Source of the DNA: a virus | DNA: 22,677 bases | Virus record (IMG/VR): IMGVR_UViG_3300047372_000034 | Span: 1-22,677 of that record | Strand: one strand, 5' to 3' | Shown: in pieces, positions 2,509-9,013 of the stretch | Layout of the letters: each line of letters starts with the position of its first letter | Position numbering within the stretch: position 1 is the first letter of the stretch | Made by a program: the position numbers and the translations under genes | The notes under the pieces: model-generated | Database searches by the model: none | The model's input: only the letters and a program-made list of their open reading frames with translations | Told to the model about the DNA's origin: nothing

Positions 2509-3543
2509 ATGGCAAAACTATTTAACAGAGCCAAGATGAACACCTCAACAAGTGGCTCGGGAACTTTAACATTAACTACAGCCGACACTGGTTATCAAAC
2601 ATTTGCTGATGCGGGTGTTACAAATGGCGATGTAGTTGCATACGTTATAGAAGAAGGAACAAACTGGGAGATAGGAACAGGAACTTATTCTTCAAGTGGG
2701 ACTACCTTAACAAGAACACCAACTGAGAGCAGTGGTGGCGGCAGTGCTATTTCATTAGGTGGGACTGCAAAAGTTTTTATCACTGCATTATCTGACGATT
2801 TTGGCAAGGTACAGCATGATGGCGTTACTAAAATGGTGGCGCACTCTAGCGGTATTACTGTTACTGGTAATGTTACTGTTAGTGGAAATGTAGATGGCAG
2901 AAACCTTGCAACAGATGGCACAAAGCTAGATGGTGTTGCAACTAATGCTGATGTAACATCTACAGCTTTGCCAAGTGCATTAACAGGGTTATCAACAGAA
3001 ACAAGTTTATCAGGTTCCGATATAATACCAGTATATGATGGTACTTCTGCAACTTGGAAAAAAGCAACAATAACAAATGCTTCCTTACAAGGACCAACTG
3101 GACCAACTGGGTCAACAGGTTCGCAAGGGGCGCAAGGCAATACTGGACCAACTGGACCAACTGGACCCGCAGGCTCAAACGGTTCTACTGGACCCACAGG
3201 ACCCACAGGACCAACAGGACCTCGAGGACCTACTGGACCTACTGGACCGCGCGGACCAACTGGACCGACAGGACCTACTGGAAATGCCGCGACAGGTTGG
3301 AACCAAGTGGGTTCTTATGCTCAAATACAATGGGCAGGGTCAGGGCTAAGACACGCAGGGTCAACCGTTGGGTCTAGCAGTTTATACGCTTGCAGTAACT
3401 ATGCCTATCTTTATGGTGGACACTCTACAACCAACAGGCCAAGCGGCTCTTGGAGGCTTATGGGTGGTCTTGGTAGATATAACGGTTCATCAAACTTAAA
3501 CCGTGACGATATGTATGCGTCAGTATTTGTGAGGTATGCTTAA
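2509..3543 (+). CDS. Collagen-like tail fibre protein
   Basis: 344 residues with three parts. Residues 1-95 are a beta-rich phage-fibre N-terminal domain (strands around [17 protein letters not shown]). Residues 96-194 form a Thr/Ser/Asp-rich stalk. Residues 195-260 hold 22 uninterrupted Gly-X-Y triplets, mostly Gly-Pro-Thr with two Gly-Pro-Arg. The last 84 residues form a globular tip ending [12 protein letters not shown]. Collagen-like repeats in phages usually make trimeric rods, so this is probably a trimeric fibre whose C-terminal knob binds the host surface. A good Shine-Dalgarno (TAGGAG at 2496-2501) precedes ATG. The stop overlaps the chaperone start as TAATG, tying it to the chaperone and oxygenase genes that follow. 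Confidence 0.9.
3091..3288 (+). repeat. Collagen-like (Gly-X-Y)22 coding repeat
   Basis: 22 consecutive 9-base units encode triplets that begin with Gly. GPT dominates, with [18 protein letters not shown], two GPR and GNA as variants. Gly is almost always GGA, while Pro uses CCA, CCC, CCT and CCG and Thr uses ACT, ACA and ACG. The array is therefore a protein-level repeat, not a recent DNA duplication. Pro sits in the X position and Thr mostly in Y. Other-frame ORFs here (W-T-N and L-D-Q periodic peptides) are artefacts. Confidence 0.95.
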
Positions 3544-3968
3544 TGTCTATTCCAATTACAGAATACCGTAATGCTAAAGTTTTAACGGAAGACGGTGGGC
3601 GCATAGATGTTGAAATAAACCACCCTGATTATGGTTGGATAGAATACACGCTTGATGTTGAAGATACCGACATGACCATAGATAACAGCGCATTAATGAC
3701 CTTAATCGGTGACGATAAAGAACCTTATGTTGCCCCTACAGCCGAAGCAATCGCGGCTGAAAAGGCTTTTGTTATAAGGGAAGAAAGGGGTTTTAGGTTG
3801 GCGCAATTAGATATTATTCTTTCTAATCCTTTACGTTGGGATGCAATGTCGGACGAAGAAAAAGCTCCTTGGATAGCCTACAGAACGGCATTATTAGATG
3901 TTCCACAGCAATCATCTTTTCCAGAAAGTGTTACTTGGCCTGCCTCCCCCGATGGTATGTTTTCGTAA
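3543..3968 (+). CDS. Tail fibre assembly chaperone (Phage_tail_APC-like)
   Basis: 141 residues. The C-terminal half carries the pattern of phage tail/fibre assembly chaperones: R-x-RLAQLDIILSNPLRW, then DEEKAPWIAYRTALLDVPQQ and a closing FPESVTWPASP. The middle (AEAIAAEKAFVIREERG) is the Ala/Glu-rich helix that precedes it in the family. Members assist folding or trimerisation of the adjacent fibre and are usually encoded directly after it, as here. Both ends are TAATG overlaps, with the collagen-like fibre upstream and an oxygenase downstream, so the four genes are probably made together. The N-terminal 65 residues look like a small beta domain I cannot name. Confidence 0.85.
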   Translation: MSIPITEYRNAKVLTEDGGRIDVEINHPDYGWIEYTLDVEDTDMTIDNSALMTLIGDDKEPYVAPTAEAIAAEKAFVIREERGFRLAQLDIILSNPLRWDAMSDEEKAPWIAYRTALLDVPQQSSFPESVTWPASPDGMFS

Positions 3969-4633
3969 TGGATATAAAAGAAATTAATTTACTAGGAAAT
4001 CGTTCGTTTCAAATAGATAATTTTTACGACCACCCTGCTTATATTATGGATATGGTGTTATCAGGACCACCAAATAAAGTAATGACTGAACACCCACTAC
4101 ATGGTGATGAGTTTTTTGATTTGCGCCATCATAGAAAAGAGCCAACGCTAGAAAAATATACAGACCAATTAGTTGAGATATTAGATAGTGAATTGCAATC
4201 TTTTGATGTTTATAAAGAGGACGGTTGCGATGTTTTGGACACTAATTTTATGCGGTGGAAAAAATCAGATTGGAATAATTACGAAGAAAATTTTTGGTTT
4301 CCGCATCAAGACGATGGTTGGGTATGTATAGTATATTTAAATGAAGCCGAAACAAATGGAACAAATATTTATGTTGATAAACACGCAAGCATACATAGAT
4401 ACGGAGGCAAAAAAACGGCAGAAGACCGTCACCCTTGGAAACCTAAATCAGATTTTGAAATAGTAGATTATCTAGAACCAAAATTTAACAGGGGTTATTT
4501 GTTCAATGCAAAGCGCATACCTCATGGAGCCGCTATAAATGATGATACATATTTTTATTCCGAAGCAGACAAAAATTACAGTCGGCACAGATTAAACCAA
4601 GCTTTATTCTTTTTTCCAAGGCCACCAAAATAA
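3968..4633 (+). CDS. 2OG-Fe(II) oxygenase-like protein 1 (221 aa)
   Basis: Start chosen at 3968, where ATG overlaps the chaperone stop as TAATG; a longer reading to 3836 would run back through the chaperone in another frame. The 221 residues show the double-stranded beta-helix dioxygenase pattern: HxD at H113-D115 in FWFPHQDDGWVCIVYLNE, NGTNIYVD as the middle strand, distal His at H186 in RIPHGAA, and a candidate 2-oxoglutarate-binding Arg at R206 or R208 in SRHRLNQALFFF. I associate this with the DUF6445 group. The family hydroxylates protein or small-molecule carbon using oxygen and 2-oxoglutarate. Substrate is unknown; position after a collagen-like fibre points to that fibre. Ends in TAATG with the second oxygenase. 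Confidence 0.8.
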   Translation: MDIKEINLLGNRSFQIDNFYDHPAYIMDMVLSGPPNKVMTEHPLHGDEFFDLRHHRKEPTLEKYTDQLVEILDSELQSFDVYKEDGCDVLDTNFMRWKKSDWNNYEENFWFPHQDDGWVCIVYLNEAETNGTNIYVDKHASIHRYGGKKTAEDRHPWKPKSDFEIVDYLEPKFNRGYLFNAKRIPHGAAINDDTYFYSEADKNYSRHRLNQALFFFPRPPK

Positions 4634-5172
4634 TGCGACAAAACTGGCAATTATATAAAAGAAATATTGCGCCTGACGTAGTGCAAAATATTATTGACCA
4701 AGCAGGCGAAACAACAAAAGCAGGCACGTTTAATAACGCAGACGATAGTGTTCGAAGCAGTCGTGTTTGTTGGCTTACAAACGAAGATTGGCTTAAAGAT
4801 TTGCTATTTCAGTATGTAGACCACTCATGCCAAAATGCTTTTTATGTAAATGTTTTTAAAAATGCAGAAATACAATATACAGAATACCATGCTTCAGAAA
4901 ATGGCCATTATGATTGGCATCACGACATAGATTGGAACGCAAATGATGGTTTAGATAGAAAGCTTTCTATAACTGTTCAGTTAAGCGACATAAATGAATA
5001 CGAGGGTGGCGACTTTCAATTTACAGAAGTTCCAAACCCAGAAATGGAAGATGCAAAGCAAAAAGGTACTGTTTTGATTTTTCCAAGCTATTTAATACAT
5101 CAAGTTTCGCCAGTGACTAAAGGCGTAAGAAAATCACTTGTGGCATGGTTCAAGGGACCAAAGTGGCAATAG
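4633..5172 (+). CDS. 2OG-Fe(II) oxygenase 2, prolyl-hydroxylase-like (179 aa)
   Basis: 179 residues covering one prolyl 4-hydroxylase/PKHD-type domain. Visible features are YTEYHASENGHYDWHHDID with the iron-binding HxD (H96-D98), EGGDFQF as the conserved turn, GTVLIFPSYLIHQVSPV with the distal iron ligand H156, and GVRKSLVAWF with R166 ten residues later, the usual 2-oxoglutarate carboxylate ligand. All four key residues are present, so an active dioxygenase is expected. Phages commonly carry such domains, but mostly without known substrate. Here it is coupled through TAATG junctions to another oxygenase, a chaperone and a collagen-like fibre. The stop is followed 14 bases later by the next gene. 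Confidence 0.92.
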   Translation: MRQNWQLYKRNIAPDVVQNIIDQAGETTKAGTFNNADDSVRSSRVCWLTNEDWLKDLLFQYVDHSCQNAFYVNVFKNAEIQYTEYHASENGHYDWHHDIDWNANDGLDRKLSITVQLSDINEYEGGDFQFTEVPNPEMEDAKQKGTVLIFPSYLIHQVSPVTKGVRKSLVAWFKGPKWQ

Positions 5173-5186
5173 AAAGGGTGTAAATT

Positions 5187-5810
5187 ATGACAGCTTTCGC
5201 TCCGTTAGGCTCAACCGCAATAGGCCAAGCATCAACAAATGCAAATTATGCAATGGGTGCGGGTAGCGGAACTTTTACCCTGTCACTGCGTGGCGCGGCA
5301 TTATTGATAGCTGATATTTTTCCTTATGGTGTTTTTCAAATTGACGGTAGACCTGTTACTTTAACCGCACAAAGGCCGTTATCTGTTAATCATGGTGCTT
5401 TTACTTATACTGGGCAAAACGTTGAGTTAGACTATGGTTTTGGAATTGTAGTTGATACAACAACATTTACATATTCTGGTCACAATGTAATTTTAGATGT
5501 TGGCTTTGGTATGGTTCTAGATACTGCCACTTTTGCAGTAACAGGACAAAATATAGATTTTACAAAACAAATGAACATTTCAGCAGAAACTGGAGCGTTT
5601 ACTTATACTGGTCAAGATGCCTTTAAAGGTGTTGGCGAAGCTTTTGCTGTTGGAACATTTACTTACACAGGGCAAGCAGTGGATATGACGGTTCAAAGGC
5701 TGTTTCAACCGTTATCAGGCGAATTTACTTATTCTTTTGCGGCAGACATAAAAACAAGAGGTTGGTTTAGTCCAACCGTACCGCCTACAATATGGACTGA
5801 TGCGGCCTAA
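5187..5810 (+). CDS. Repeat-built virion or fibre protein with 22-residue FTYTGQ repeats
   Basis: 207 residues built from a repeat that begins with Phe (consensus FTYTGQNVxL). Phe starts fall at residues 30, 50, 72, 94, 116, 138, 158 and 180, giving a period of 22 with two of 20. Alternating hydrophobics suggest each unit supplies two or three beta-strands, as in a beta-solenoid or a chain of beta-hairpins. No signal peptide or membrane segment is seen. Similar GxFxxTGQ repeats occur in marine phage structural proteins as I recall them. It lies between the oxygenases and a fibre gene, so a tail appendage is likely. A Shine-Dalgarno AAAGGG precedes the start. Confidence 0.82.
   Translation: MTAFAPLGSTAIGQASTNANYAMGAGSGTFTLSLRGAALLIADIFPYGVFQIDGRPVTLTAQRPLSVNHGAFTYTGQNVELDYGFGIVVDTTTFTYSGHNVILDVGFGMVLDTATFAVTGQNIDFTKQMNISAETGAFTYTGQDAFKGVGEAFAVGTFTYTGQAVDMTVQRLFQPLSGEFTYSFAADIKTRGWFSPTVPPTIWTDAA
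5274..5741 (+). repeat. 22-residue protein repeat region (8 units)
   Basis: The encoded units start at Phe30, 50, 72, 94, 116, 138, 158 and 180 of the protein. Units 3, 4, 6 and 7 carry the clearest FTY(T/S)G motif, unit 5 reads FAVTGQN, and the first two and the last are degenerate. The DNA has diverged between units, so this is an old duplication. Confidence 0.85.
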
Positions 5811-5841: not shown

Positions 5842-6363
5842 ATGGCTATTACACTTACCAAACCGACAGTTGGAGGTTCAGAGGGAACTTGGGGAAATAC
5901 CATCAATACAGCCCTTGATGACGTACAAAACGCTTTAAATGGAACCGCAGGAACTGTTGCGCCAAATTTAACTAAAGTAACAATTAACGGAACTGACGTA
6001 ACGGCAACGGCGGCAGAATTAAATGCTCTTGATGGTGTAACATCAACAGCCGCAGAATTAAATATTTTAGACGGTGTGACCGCCACAGCTTCAGAATTAA
6101 ATGCCTTAGATGGTATTACTTCTACAGCCGCAGAATTAAATTTATTAGATGGCTCAGTTGCTAACACAGTCGTTAATAGCAAAGCGGTAGTTTACGGCTC
6201 ATCTGGTCAAGTACAAGCAACAACTGTTGATTTAGGCGATTGGACAATAACCCAGTCTGGAAGCAGTTTAAAGTTTGCTTACCAAGGAACAAATCGTTTT
6301 TCATTATCATCAAGTGGTGCATTAACAGTAGAAAACAATATAACAGCTTATGGAAGTGCATAA
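5842..6363 (+). CDS. Tail fibre protein with TAAELN repeats (173 aa)
   Basis: AGGAG at 5831-5835 lies six bases before ATG. The N-terminal 50 residues (SEGTWGNTINTALDDVQNALN) match the opening of many marine and cyanophage fibre proteins. Four tandem 13-residue units follow at 53-104 with the core TAAELNxLDG, a known fibre-stalk repeat in marine phages that probably forms a trimeric helical or beta segment. The end (DLGDWTITQSGSSLKFAYQGTNRFSLSSSGALTVENNI) looks like a short beta-helical foot. At 173 residues it is short for a fibre, so it may be a stalk piece that joins another protein, perhaps the product of the next gene. Confidence 0.85.
   Translation: MAITLTKPTVGGSEGTWGNTINTALDDVQNALNGTAGTVAPNLTKVTINGTDVTATAAELNALDGVTSTAAELNILDGVTATASELNALDGITSTAAELNLLDGSVANTVVNSKAVVYGSSGQVQATTVDLGDWTITQSGSSLKFAYQGTNRFSLSSSGALTVENNITAYGSA
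5998..6153 (+). repeat. Four 13-residue TAAELNxLDG repeats
   Basis: Four 39-base units encode VTATAAELNALDG and three close variants without any gap. Units differ mainly at the third codon base and at residues 3 and 10, so the array is conserved as protein. Confidence 0.93.
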
Positions 6364-7183: not shown

Positions 7184-9013
7184 ATGCCATTAGTCCCATT
7201 AGATTTAAAAGCAGGGTTTTACAGAAACGGCACAGAATTTGATGCGTCAAACAGGTGGCGTGATGGTAGTCTTGTTAGATGGCGCGATGGTTCTTTACGG
7301 CCTATCGGTGGGTGGCAAACTTTTAAAGAAGGTTTTTGTACTAATCCAATCCGAGGCGCACACGCTTGGGAAAGCAATAATGGAACTGCATACTTTGCGG
7401 CGGGAAGCTATAATGAGCTAACAGCCATGACAGGTTCAGGCACAACATACGATATAACGCCAACTTCTATGTCTACTGGCAGGGAAGATGCAGGGTTAAA
7501 TTTAGGCTTTGGTGGTGGGTTTTACGGCACTGGCTATTTTGGAACTCAACGCCCTGCAACTGGAACTTATTCTGAGGCAACATCGTGGTCACTTGATAAC
7601 TTTGGTCAGTTTTTGGTTGGGGTTCATTACGACACTGGAACACTTGTGGAATGGCAACTTGGTTCTTCAGCAGTGGCCGCTCCTGTTACAAATGCACCGC
7701 TTAATAATTTAGGTTTAGTTGTTACAGAAGAACGATTTATATTTTTATTAGGCGCAGGCGGTGACCCGAGAAAAGTCCAGTGGTGCGATAAAGAAGCAAA
7801 TACAGTTTGGACTGCGGCGGCGACAAACGAAGCGGGTGACTTTACTTTGCAGACAAGTGGTCAGATTATGCAGGGTCTTAAAACTAGAGGTCAAACATTA
7901 ATTATAACAGACAGCGATGCGTTTGCGGCTAAATATCTCGGACCTCCGTATGTCTATGGCTTCGATAGGGTTGGAACTTCTTGCGGGGCTGTTTCGCGTA
8001 TGTCGGCGGTAGATACTGACCAAGGTGCTTTTTGGATGGGGCAAAAAGGGTTTTTTGGGTTCGATGGTAACTCTGTTCGAGAAATACCTTGTGAAGTTCA
8101 CGACTATGTTTTTGACGATATAAACGTAAACCAACAATCTAAAATATGGGCTTGGAGCAATACTGAATTTAGCGAAGTTTGGTGGTTTTATCCTTCGGCG
8201 GGTAGTTTGGAAATAGACCGATATGTAGCAGTAGATTTAGCTGAAAACCATTGGCTTATAGGAAACCTATCACGGACAGGCGGCGTTTCTAGGGGTGTTT
8301 TCAGAACACCTATTATGAGTGGTCAATACACACAGAATATTACTTATAATGTTACTGTTGCGGCAAGTGGTGGCGGTAATAAATATTTTATATCAGACCA
8401 TTCTGGTGCGGCTCCAACTATTACATTAAGAAAAGGAAACACTTATCGGTTCGACCAATCAAATAATTCTAATATTGGTCACCCTTTCCAGTTTTCTACT
8501 ACCGCAAACGGTACGCATGGCGGTGGGTCAGCATATTCAACAGGTGTGACAACAACAGGTTCAGCGGGGTCAACTGGAAGTTATGTTGAAATTACTGTTA
8601 CTGATAGCACACCTTCAACGCTTTATTATTATTGCACTGCTCATAGTGGAATGGGAGGAACAATAAACATAATTGAGCCAGTAATGGTTTTTAACCATGA
8701 GCAAGGTTTAAATTATGATAGCGGTTCTATTTTTTGCGAAACTGGACCAATTTCGATTGGAAACGGTGATGCTGTTGCAAAAGTAATTGAAGTAATACCT
8801 GATGAAAAAACTCAAGGTGACGTTGATTTAAAATTTAAAACAAGATTTTATCCTAACGATACCGAAACAACTCATGGACCTTTTAATCCAAGTAACCCTA
8901 CTGCATTGCGTTTTACTGGTAGGCAAATGCGGATGCGAGTAGAAGGCGACCAAGCAACAAATTGGCGTGTGGGAACAATGCGATTAGAAACTAAAGCGGG
9001 AGGCAGACGCTAA
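7184..9013 (+). CDS. Large tail protein with inserted cupredoxin domain (609 aa)
   Basis: Residues 1-380 begin PLDLKAGFYRNGTEFDASNRW and continue with WRDGSLRPIGGW, a start I recognise from large structural proteins of marine podoviruses; the Trp/Gly-rich beta pattern fits a propeller-like or nozzle-like tail body. Residues about 385-497 form a cupredoxin domain: PTITLRKGNTYRFDQSN, NIGHPFQF, and YYYCTAHSGMGGTINI. His433, Cys484, His487 and Met490 match the four type-1 copper ligands, with the C-x2-H-x2-M spacing of amicyanin. Residues 500-609 return to tail sequence (LRFTGRQMRMRVEGDQATNWRVG). Stop overlaps the next start as TAATG. Tail location is inferred; copper binding is a prediction. Confidence 0.85.
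   Translation: MPLVPLDLKAGFYRNGTEFDASNRWRDGSLVRWRDGSLRPIGGWQTFKEGFCTNPIRGAHAWESNNGTAYFAAGSYNELTAMTGSGTTYDITPTSMSTGREDAGLNLGFGGGFYGTGYFGTQRPATGTYSEATSWSLDNFGQFLVGVHYDTGTLVEWQLGSSAVAAPVTNAPLNNLGLVVTEERFIFLLGAGGDPRKVQWCDKEANTVWTAAATNEAGDFTLQTSGQIMQGLKTRGQTLIITDSDAFAAKYLGPPYVYGFDRVGTSCGAVSRMSAVDTDQGAFWMGQKGFFGFDGNSVREIPCEVHDYVFDDINVNQQSKIWAWSNTEFSEVWWFYPSAGSLEIDRYVAVDLAENHWLIGNLSRTGGVSRGVFRTPIMSGQYTQNITYNVTVAASGGGNKYFISDHSGAAPTITLRKGNTYRFDQSNNSNIGHPFQFSTTANGTHGGGSAYSTGVTTTGSAGSTGSYVEITVTDSTPSTLYYYCTAHSGMGGTINIIEPVMVFNHEQGLNYDSGSIFCETGPISIGNGDAVAKVIEVIPDEKTQGDVDLKFKTRFYPNDTETTHGPFNPSNPTALRFTGRQMRMRVEGDQATNWRVGTMRLETKAGGRR
8336..8674 (+). other. Cupredoxin-like domain within the tail protein
   Basis: The domain covers residues about 385-497. 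Candidate copper ligands are His433 (in NIGHPF), Cys484, His487 and Met490 (in CTAHSGM). The strand before Cys, TLYYYC, is the usual entry to the copper loop. The domain is flanked on both sides by tail-type sequence, so it is an insertion in one polypeptide and not a separate gene. Confidence 0.8.

Follow-up and report, generated by a model that had tools for sequence, protein, structure and literature searches.

A candidate fibre-maturation cassette in a phage: a collagen-like tail fibre encoded together with two putative fibre hydroxylases

Does a marine bacterial virus hydroxylate its own collagen-like tail fibre? The question is raised by four adjacent genes of the virus record IMGVR_UViG_3300047372_000034, analysed as a single stretch of 22,677 nucleotides (nt; positions 1 to 22,677) called here the window. 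This 22.7-kb record carries an SU10-like adaptor, a portal and a major capsid protein. The four genes encode a collagen-like tail fibre, a tail fibre assembly chaperone and two oxygenases of the 2-oxoglutarate (2OG)-Fe(II) type, named here ox1 and ox2. They are read as a fibre-maturation cassette, by which the phage would hydroxylate the shaft of its own fibre; on the strength of sequences and structural models, this reading is given a probability of about 0.78. The features are listed below.

2509..3543, + strand, collagen-like tail fibre of 344 amino acids (aa), with an anchoring domain at the N-terminus, then 22 Gly-X-Y triplets and a knob at the C-terminus
3091..3288, + strand, Gly-X-Y region of the fibre: X is Pro in 68% and Y is Thr in 68% of triplets; Pro and Lys are both zero at Y
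3217..3234, + strand, first GPRGPT motif, with CGA as the Arg codon; candidate site of ox1
3244..3261, + strand, second GPRGPT motif, with CGC as the Arg codon; candidate site of ox1
3543..3968, + strand, tail fibre assembly chaperone (PF16778, PHROG 4628)
3968..4633, + strand, ox1, a 2OG-Fe(II) oxygenase with no Pfam family; its suggested target is the Arg of GxRGPT or the Pro that comes next
4633..5172, + strand, ox2, a 2OG-Fe(II) oxygenase of the PKHD/P4H type and candidate hydroxylase of the Pro residues at X

The first-pass annotation, made from the DNA alone, had placed a fibre of 22 Gly-X-Y triplets, a tail-assembly chaperone and two oxygenases at these coordinates, and the sequence and the Pfam and PHROG matches bear it out. 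The fibre matches the Pfam Collagen family over the cut-off (E 2.5e-9, residues 201-255) as well as many PHROG tail fibre families. The triplets run without interruption from residue 195 to residue 260 (nt 3091-3288), a long unbroken Gly-X-Y run in a tail fibre, as is typical of collagen-like phage tail fibres. The chaperone matches PF16778 Phage_tail_APC (E 2e-13) and PHROG 4628, tail fiber assembly (E 3.6e-24). Both the Gly-X-Y pattern and the family scores of the cassette genes are far beyond chance. The joining of the genes by TAATG overlaps was also correctly described: TAA is found at 3541-3543, 3966-3968 and 4631-4633, and the next ATG overlaps each by one base. Such overlaps are widespread in phages, and indicate translational coupling only.

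The active-site motif is intact in both enzymes. In ox2, which matches PF13640 2OG-FeII_Oxy_3 (E 7.9e-15), H96-x-D98, H156 and R166 are invariant among 38 relatives and correspond to the HxD...H iron triad and the 2OG-binding residue. The same set had been ascribed to the second oxygenase alone. This holds for ox2, but the restriction does not, as ox1 has the full set too (H113-x-D115, H186 and R208, invariant among 19 relatives). The structural model of ox2, with a predicted local distance difference test score (pLDDT) of 94, features the double-stranded beta-helix and folds like prolyl 4-hydroxylases. All the top fold matches listed are 2OG oxygenases (Z 19.2 to 15.2); the best among them are prolyl hydroxylases, namely Pseudomonas putida P4H (Z 19.2), an algal P4H (18.1), HIF PHD2 (18.1) and the viral collagen prolyl hydroxylase of PBCV-1 (17.9), and human LH3 comes after them (16.3). 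By sequence, the closest solved relative is a PKHD-type hydroxylase (E 5.5e-11), though ox2 scores 57.3 bits against the NCBIfam PKHD model PRK05467, whose cut-off is 143, and lies below every NCBIfam PKHD cut-off. Searches of Pfam and NCBIfam matched ox1 to no family, and a profile search of PDB matched it to nothing. It resembles PHROG 1644 ('minor coat protein', E 1.2e-24) and, by tblastn, cyanophage proteins annotated as prolyl 4-hydroxylase or 2OG-Fe(II) oxygenase (33-35% identity). Its model is weak (pLDDT 64), and the best 50 VIA matches are 2OG-oxygenase structures by title (Z 10.8-9.4), OGFOD1 being the first. A comparison of ox1 and ox2 profiles revealed no usable similarity, on too few sequences to argue that the two are unrelated. 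A common fold does not establish function.

Since the two oxygenases were supposed to modify the fibre encoded with them, co-occurrence in related phages was the check proposed by the annotation, and it has been passed. Relatives were gathered via ox1, via ox2 and via two neutral anchors, the adaptor and a downstream virion protein; genes were mapped with profiles built for this analysis, and near-identical loci were merged into clusters. Among neutral-anchor clusters spanning the island, 9 have both a collagen (10 or more triplets) and an oxygenase, 35 have neither, and none is discordant. The window's own cluster, one of the 9, also holds relatives without collagen or oxygenase; when these are counted apart, the figures become 9 versus 36 (Fisher 1.1e-9). 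Three neutral contigs that show an oxygenase and no collagen start inside the cassette. PF13640, searched in 50 whole records, was present in 8 of them, and these are precisely the records that hold a collagen of at least 10 triplets. In the oxygenase-anchored scans, a collagen fibre is found just upstream in all distinct cases with enough upstream DNA (11/11 for ox1, 14/14 for ox2).

In relatives such as L148, the flanks are about 81-83% identical to those of the window, and the fibre past codon ~139, the chaperone, ox1 and ox2 are swapped for other tail genes. The fibre N-terminal domain retains 80.7% DNA identity with relatives carrying another fibre tip. It is as one block that close relatives exchange the tip of the fibre, the chaperone and the two oxygenases. 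In one relative that lacks the collagen, a DUF6065 gene (L154:6729-7421, + strand) occupies the place of the chaperone and oxygenases in the exchanged block.

Residues of the repeats covary with the enzymes. Two additional scans were anchored on collagen repeats of the GPT and GQK types and were blind to oxygenases, which were counted in clusters with at least 3 kb downstream. Among Lys-rich GQK-anchored clusters, 31/42 have an oxygenase. The additional enzyme near Lys-rich fibres is mostly a protein of 560-660 residues. The long enzymes tested consist of glycosyltransferase (GT) 25 and PLOD glycosyltransferase domains followed by a C-terminal 2OG domain. PF25342 was detected in four of them (E 1e-42 to 9e-59 in three, 7e-39 in the fourth), and these phage enzymes match human LH3 (E 1.4e-38) and the mimivirus L230 domain (6ax6, E 2.8e-9). 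All the long forms, including the divergent L394 and L402, are called here PLOD-like. PLOD-like proteins go with Y-Lys of 8% or more in 35/35 clusters, and ox2-type enzymes with Pro at X (X-Pro) in 52/54. Within the PLOD-like clusters, 23 have both an ox2-type enzyme and X-Pro, 11 have neither and 1 is discordant (Fisher 2.9e-8). All residue thresholds were set after the data had been seen. On the tree of PLOD proteins, this pairing is backed by 6 independent changes, 5-6 of them in the same direction and none in the opposite one; taken by itself, the sign test gives a borderline result (median p 0.06). Because Y-Thr remains frequent (0.41-0.48) in several collagens without ox2, X-Pro separates ox2-bearing from ox2-lacking collagens better than Y-Thr does. 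Cultured phages fit the residue-enzyme rule. In the Synechococcus phages S-8S56, S-PRM1 and S-CAM9, a collagen fibre with X-Pro and Y-Lys is followed by ox2-type and PLOD-like genes; Roseobacter phage CRP-6, with X-Pro at 0.06 and Y-Lys at 0.26, has a chaperone and a PLOD-like gene, and no ox2-type gene in the region fetched.

Sequence covariation and the modelled fold together make it probable that Pro at X is the residue hydroxylated by ox2. The annotation had evoked the prolyl hydroxylases that stabilise collagen in animals; their classical model, in which a prolyl 4-hydroxylase modifies Pro at Y, does not apply and has been discarded because the window's fibre has zero Pro at Y. Nor do the window's enzymes belong to the PLOD/L230 type: they measure 179 and 221 aa, have no fused GT domain, and face a fibre lacking Y-Lys. 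The GT_PLOD fusion is absent from the window and found in related loci.

Some of these loci deserve mention in their own right. GT25, GT_PLOD and 2OG fusions lie next to Lys-rich fibres at L023:5318-7075 (+), L406:8842-10629 (-), L217:2964-4829 (+) and L363:5811-7787 (+), and such fusions of marine phages are mostly annotated as hypothetical proteins. At L394:1-2313 (-) and L402:4167-5876 (+), beside Lys-rich collagens, GT_PLOD is replaced by group-1/family-4 glycosyltransferase and OGFOD2-like domains. An exception to the X-Pro rule is L373, which has an ox2-type and a PLOD-like enzyme, yet collagen-like open reading frames without Pro at X.

What ox1 would modify has been approached by comparing, in the clusters that bear ox2, all residues at both X and Y. 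Arg at Y was found in 14/14 clusters with ox1 and in 4/31 without (Fisher 1.8e-8), the strongest residue/position combination tested, and the motif GxRGPT is present in all 14 ox1-positive clusters. Arg at Y is followed by GPT in 38/38 instances (background 29%) and preceded by GPT in 35/38; these counts include repeats multiplied by descent, and the nominal probability is therefore too small. As six different Arg codons encode its Arg, GxRGPT is held at the protein level. Along the ox2 tree, 8 changes of ox1 are counted. In one close pair, with flanks 80-91% identical and knobs nearly the same, L037 has ox1 and six GxRGPT motifs, and L132 has no ox1 and no Arg in its repeats. L094, about 75-85% identical to the window, similarly lacks both ox1 and the motif. 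A final viral scan with the ox1 alignment returned zero new ox1 contigs. On this covariation ox1 may well act within GxRGPT, with slightly less assurance than is given to the role of ox2. That Arg itself is the target falls somewhat short of even odds.

The first alternative is a variant of the same proposal, in which ox1 recognizes GxRGPT and hydroxylates the Pro after Arg, as a site-specific prolyl hydroxylase. The invariable GPT after Arg would suit it, as would the weak ox1 fold matches, which include the collagen prolyl 3-hydroxylase P3H1 and OGFOD1, described as a prolyl 3-hydroxylase (PMC4396695). It is nonetheless less likely than not, since many other 2OG oxygenases score alike on the poor ox1 model, and since it is Arg whose presence varies with that of ox1. 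Hydroxylation of protein arginine by a bacterial 2OG oxygenase has a precedent in E. coli YcfD, which acts on ribosomal L16 (PMC4543633). The first-pass suggestion that two oxygenases act on different residues gains support both from ox2 going with X-Pro and from ox1 going with Arg in GxRGPT. We know of no example of arginine modification of collagen.

Several observations weigh against self-modification of the fibre shaft. On strongly supported branches, the association between ox1 and the motif reduces to 3 independent pairs only, nearly all concordant. A distant ox1 relative, L351, is found without Y-Arg, and ox1 is missing from all 16 RGPT-bearing clusters (0/16) recovered by anchor-independent scans. 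These 16 lie outside the oxygenase-anchored set, and they rule out GxRGPT as a sufficient mark of an ox1 substrate. Low-Y-Lys clusters of the GPT-anchored scan have an oxygenase nearby in only 2/41 cases; collagen fibres can do without, and the notion that every collagen fibre needs an oxygenase has been rejected. Homologues of ox2 are encoded by the P-SSM7, HTVC008M, Syn30, S-SCSM1 and ACG-2014j genomes, which have no Pfam collagen match, and by SAR116 and Flavobacteria with no collagen within 8 kb. T4-like cyanophages and bacteria thus rule out that all ox2 relatives accompany collagen, and the wider ox2 family is not collagen-only. Lastly, shared transfer as a linked block could explain part of the association.

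According to a second alternative, the oxygenases act on something else, such as a host protein, nucleotide, lipid or metabolite, and travel with the fibre only through block exchange of host-range modules. The exchange of fibre tip, chaperone and oxygenases as a unit, the homologues without nearby collagen in T4-like cyanophages and bacteria, and the usual filing of phage 2OG oxygenases as auxiliary metabolic genes are all in keeping with it. Linkage alone, however, gives no reason to expect each enzyme to follow a single residue at a single repeat position, including changes between otherwise similar phages. Moreover, a GPx-repeat protein is often the neighbour of an ox2 homologue in Sphingobium, Novosphingobium and relatives; on sphingomonad chromosomes, such a homologue is paired with a collagen-like protein that has X-Pro, and no phage module is seen around them. 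Hitch-hiking of this kind is therefore regarded as improbable. That the oxygenases modify the distal knob or the chaperone rather than the shaft is very improbable: the knob varies among relatives and sits in the exchanged block, but covariation is with shaft residues, and L037 and L132 differ in ox1 and shaft Arg while having nearly identical knobs.

Two observations concern the bacterial loci themselves. The two collagen-like GPx-repeat proteins inspected among those encoded beside ox2 homologues, both on Sphingobium chromosomes (L605:8001-10171 and L611:7875-10333), have a lipoprotein-like N-terminus. In L589, L587, L594 and other loci of SAR116 and marine Alphaproteobacteria, the ox2 homologues are 45-48% identical and have no collagen-like gene within 8 kb.

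The claim that the oxygenases modify the co-encoded fibre is thus supported by near-perfect co-occurrence in this phage group and by residue-specific covariation, and self-modification of the shaft remains the preferred reading. In the sequence of events proposed, the phage would produce its tail fibre as a trimer whose shaft is collagen-like, and the chaperone would assist the assembly of the fibre. Hydroxylation of the shaft by ox1 and ox2 would take place before or during triple-helix formation; in mammals, prolyl and lysyl modification of collagen comes before helix formation (PMC8968730). The most likely substrate of ox2 would be the Pro at X of Gly-Pro-Thr. Close to where the shaft ends on its C-terminal side, the two GPRGPT motifs would be the most likely sites for ox1, which would modify Arg or the adjacent Pro. 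At GxRGPT, each chain would be acted on a single time or a few times. The benefit may be a stabler helix or an altered surface; the annotation had suggested stiffening of the helix, or its masking from host defence, either of which may apply.

Comparable systems are few. The vCPH protein of Paramecium bursaria chlorella virus 1 (PBCV-1) is virus-encoded like ox2 and matches its fold (structure 5c5t); it is a prolyl hydroxylase, as ox2 is proposed to be. The two are 18% identical, and PBCV-1 infects a eukaryotic alga. To our knowledge, vCPH does not share an operon with a tail fibre. PKHD-type hydroxylases (PiuC/YbiX) and P. putida P4H, the closest solved relatives of ox2 by sequence and by fold, respectively, have no link to collagen that we know of. 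The PBCV-1 enzyme is cited in PMC9301287, a 2022 survey that calls viral use of prolyl 4-hydroxylase 'cryptic'. Mimivirus, with L230 (lysyl hydroxylase plus glycosyltransferase), R699 and the mimiviral collagens, likewise modifies its own collagen (PMC9546862), as is proposed here for a phage. L230 and human LH3 are matched by the PLOD-like phage proteins of related loci; the window has instead two separate small oxygenases and no Y-Lys. BaP4H of Bacillus anthracis, which is reported to act on both the X and the Y prolines of collagen-like peptides as a hydroxylase (review PMC8968730), is a cellular enzyme favouring Y, whereas the window's phage fibre has no Pro at Y. The E. coli prophage protein EPclPs has, like the window's fibre, a Gly-X-Y shaft in which Pro is preferred at X; the 2012 paper describing it held that bacteria and viruses lack the required collagen prolyl hydroxylases (PMC3368898). 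Viral self-modification of collagen is thus already known from mimivirus, and a viral prolyl hydroxylase from PBCV-1. The coupling of collagen with a hydroxylase or hydroxylysine in phages was not found reported in the literature searched, most subscription journals and bioRxiv being outside its scope.

Other genes of the window feature unusual proteins. The virion protein encoded at 7184-9013 includes a cupredoxin-like stretch at about residues 385-496 (weak PF00127 match; strong PHROG tail fibre matches), and two proteins encoded at 5187-5810 and 5842-6363 show by eye short internal repeats, made of FTYTGQ-like and TAAELNxLDG units.

Phage 2OG oxygenases are abundant in marine viruses, and few of their substrates have been identified. 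The oxygenases of marine phages gain here a concrete proposed substrate and a prediction at residue level. It is possible, if doubtful, that the collagen-like tail fibres of marine phages are subject to a residue-specific modification code, in which the genes for an X-Pro oxygenase, a GxRGPT arginyl hydroxylase and an LH3-like fusion for Y-Lys would be acquired and lost along with the residues that the enzymes target. If the fibre is indeed hydroxylated, collagen modification of the animal kind would be present in bacterial viruses, and small enzymes would be on offer for modifying recombinant collagen.

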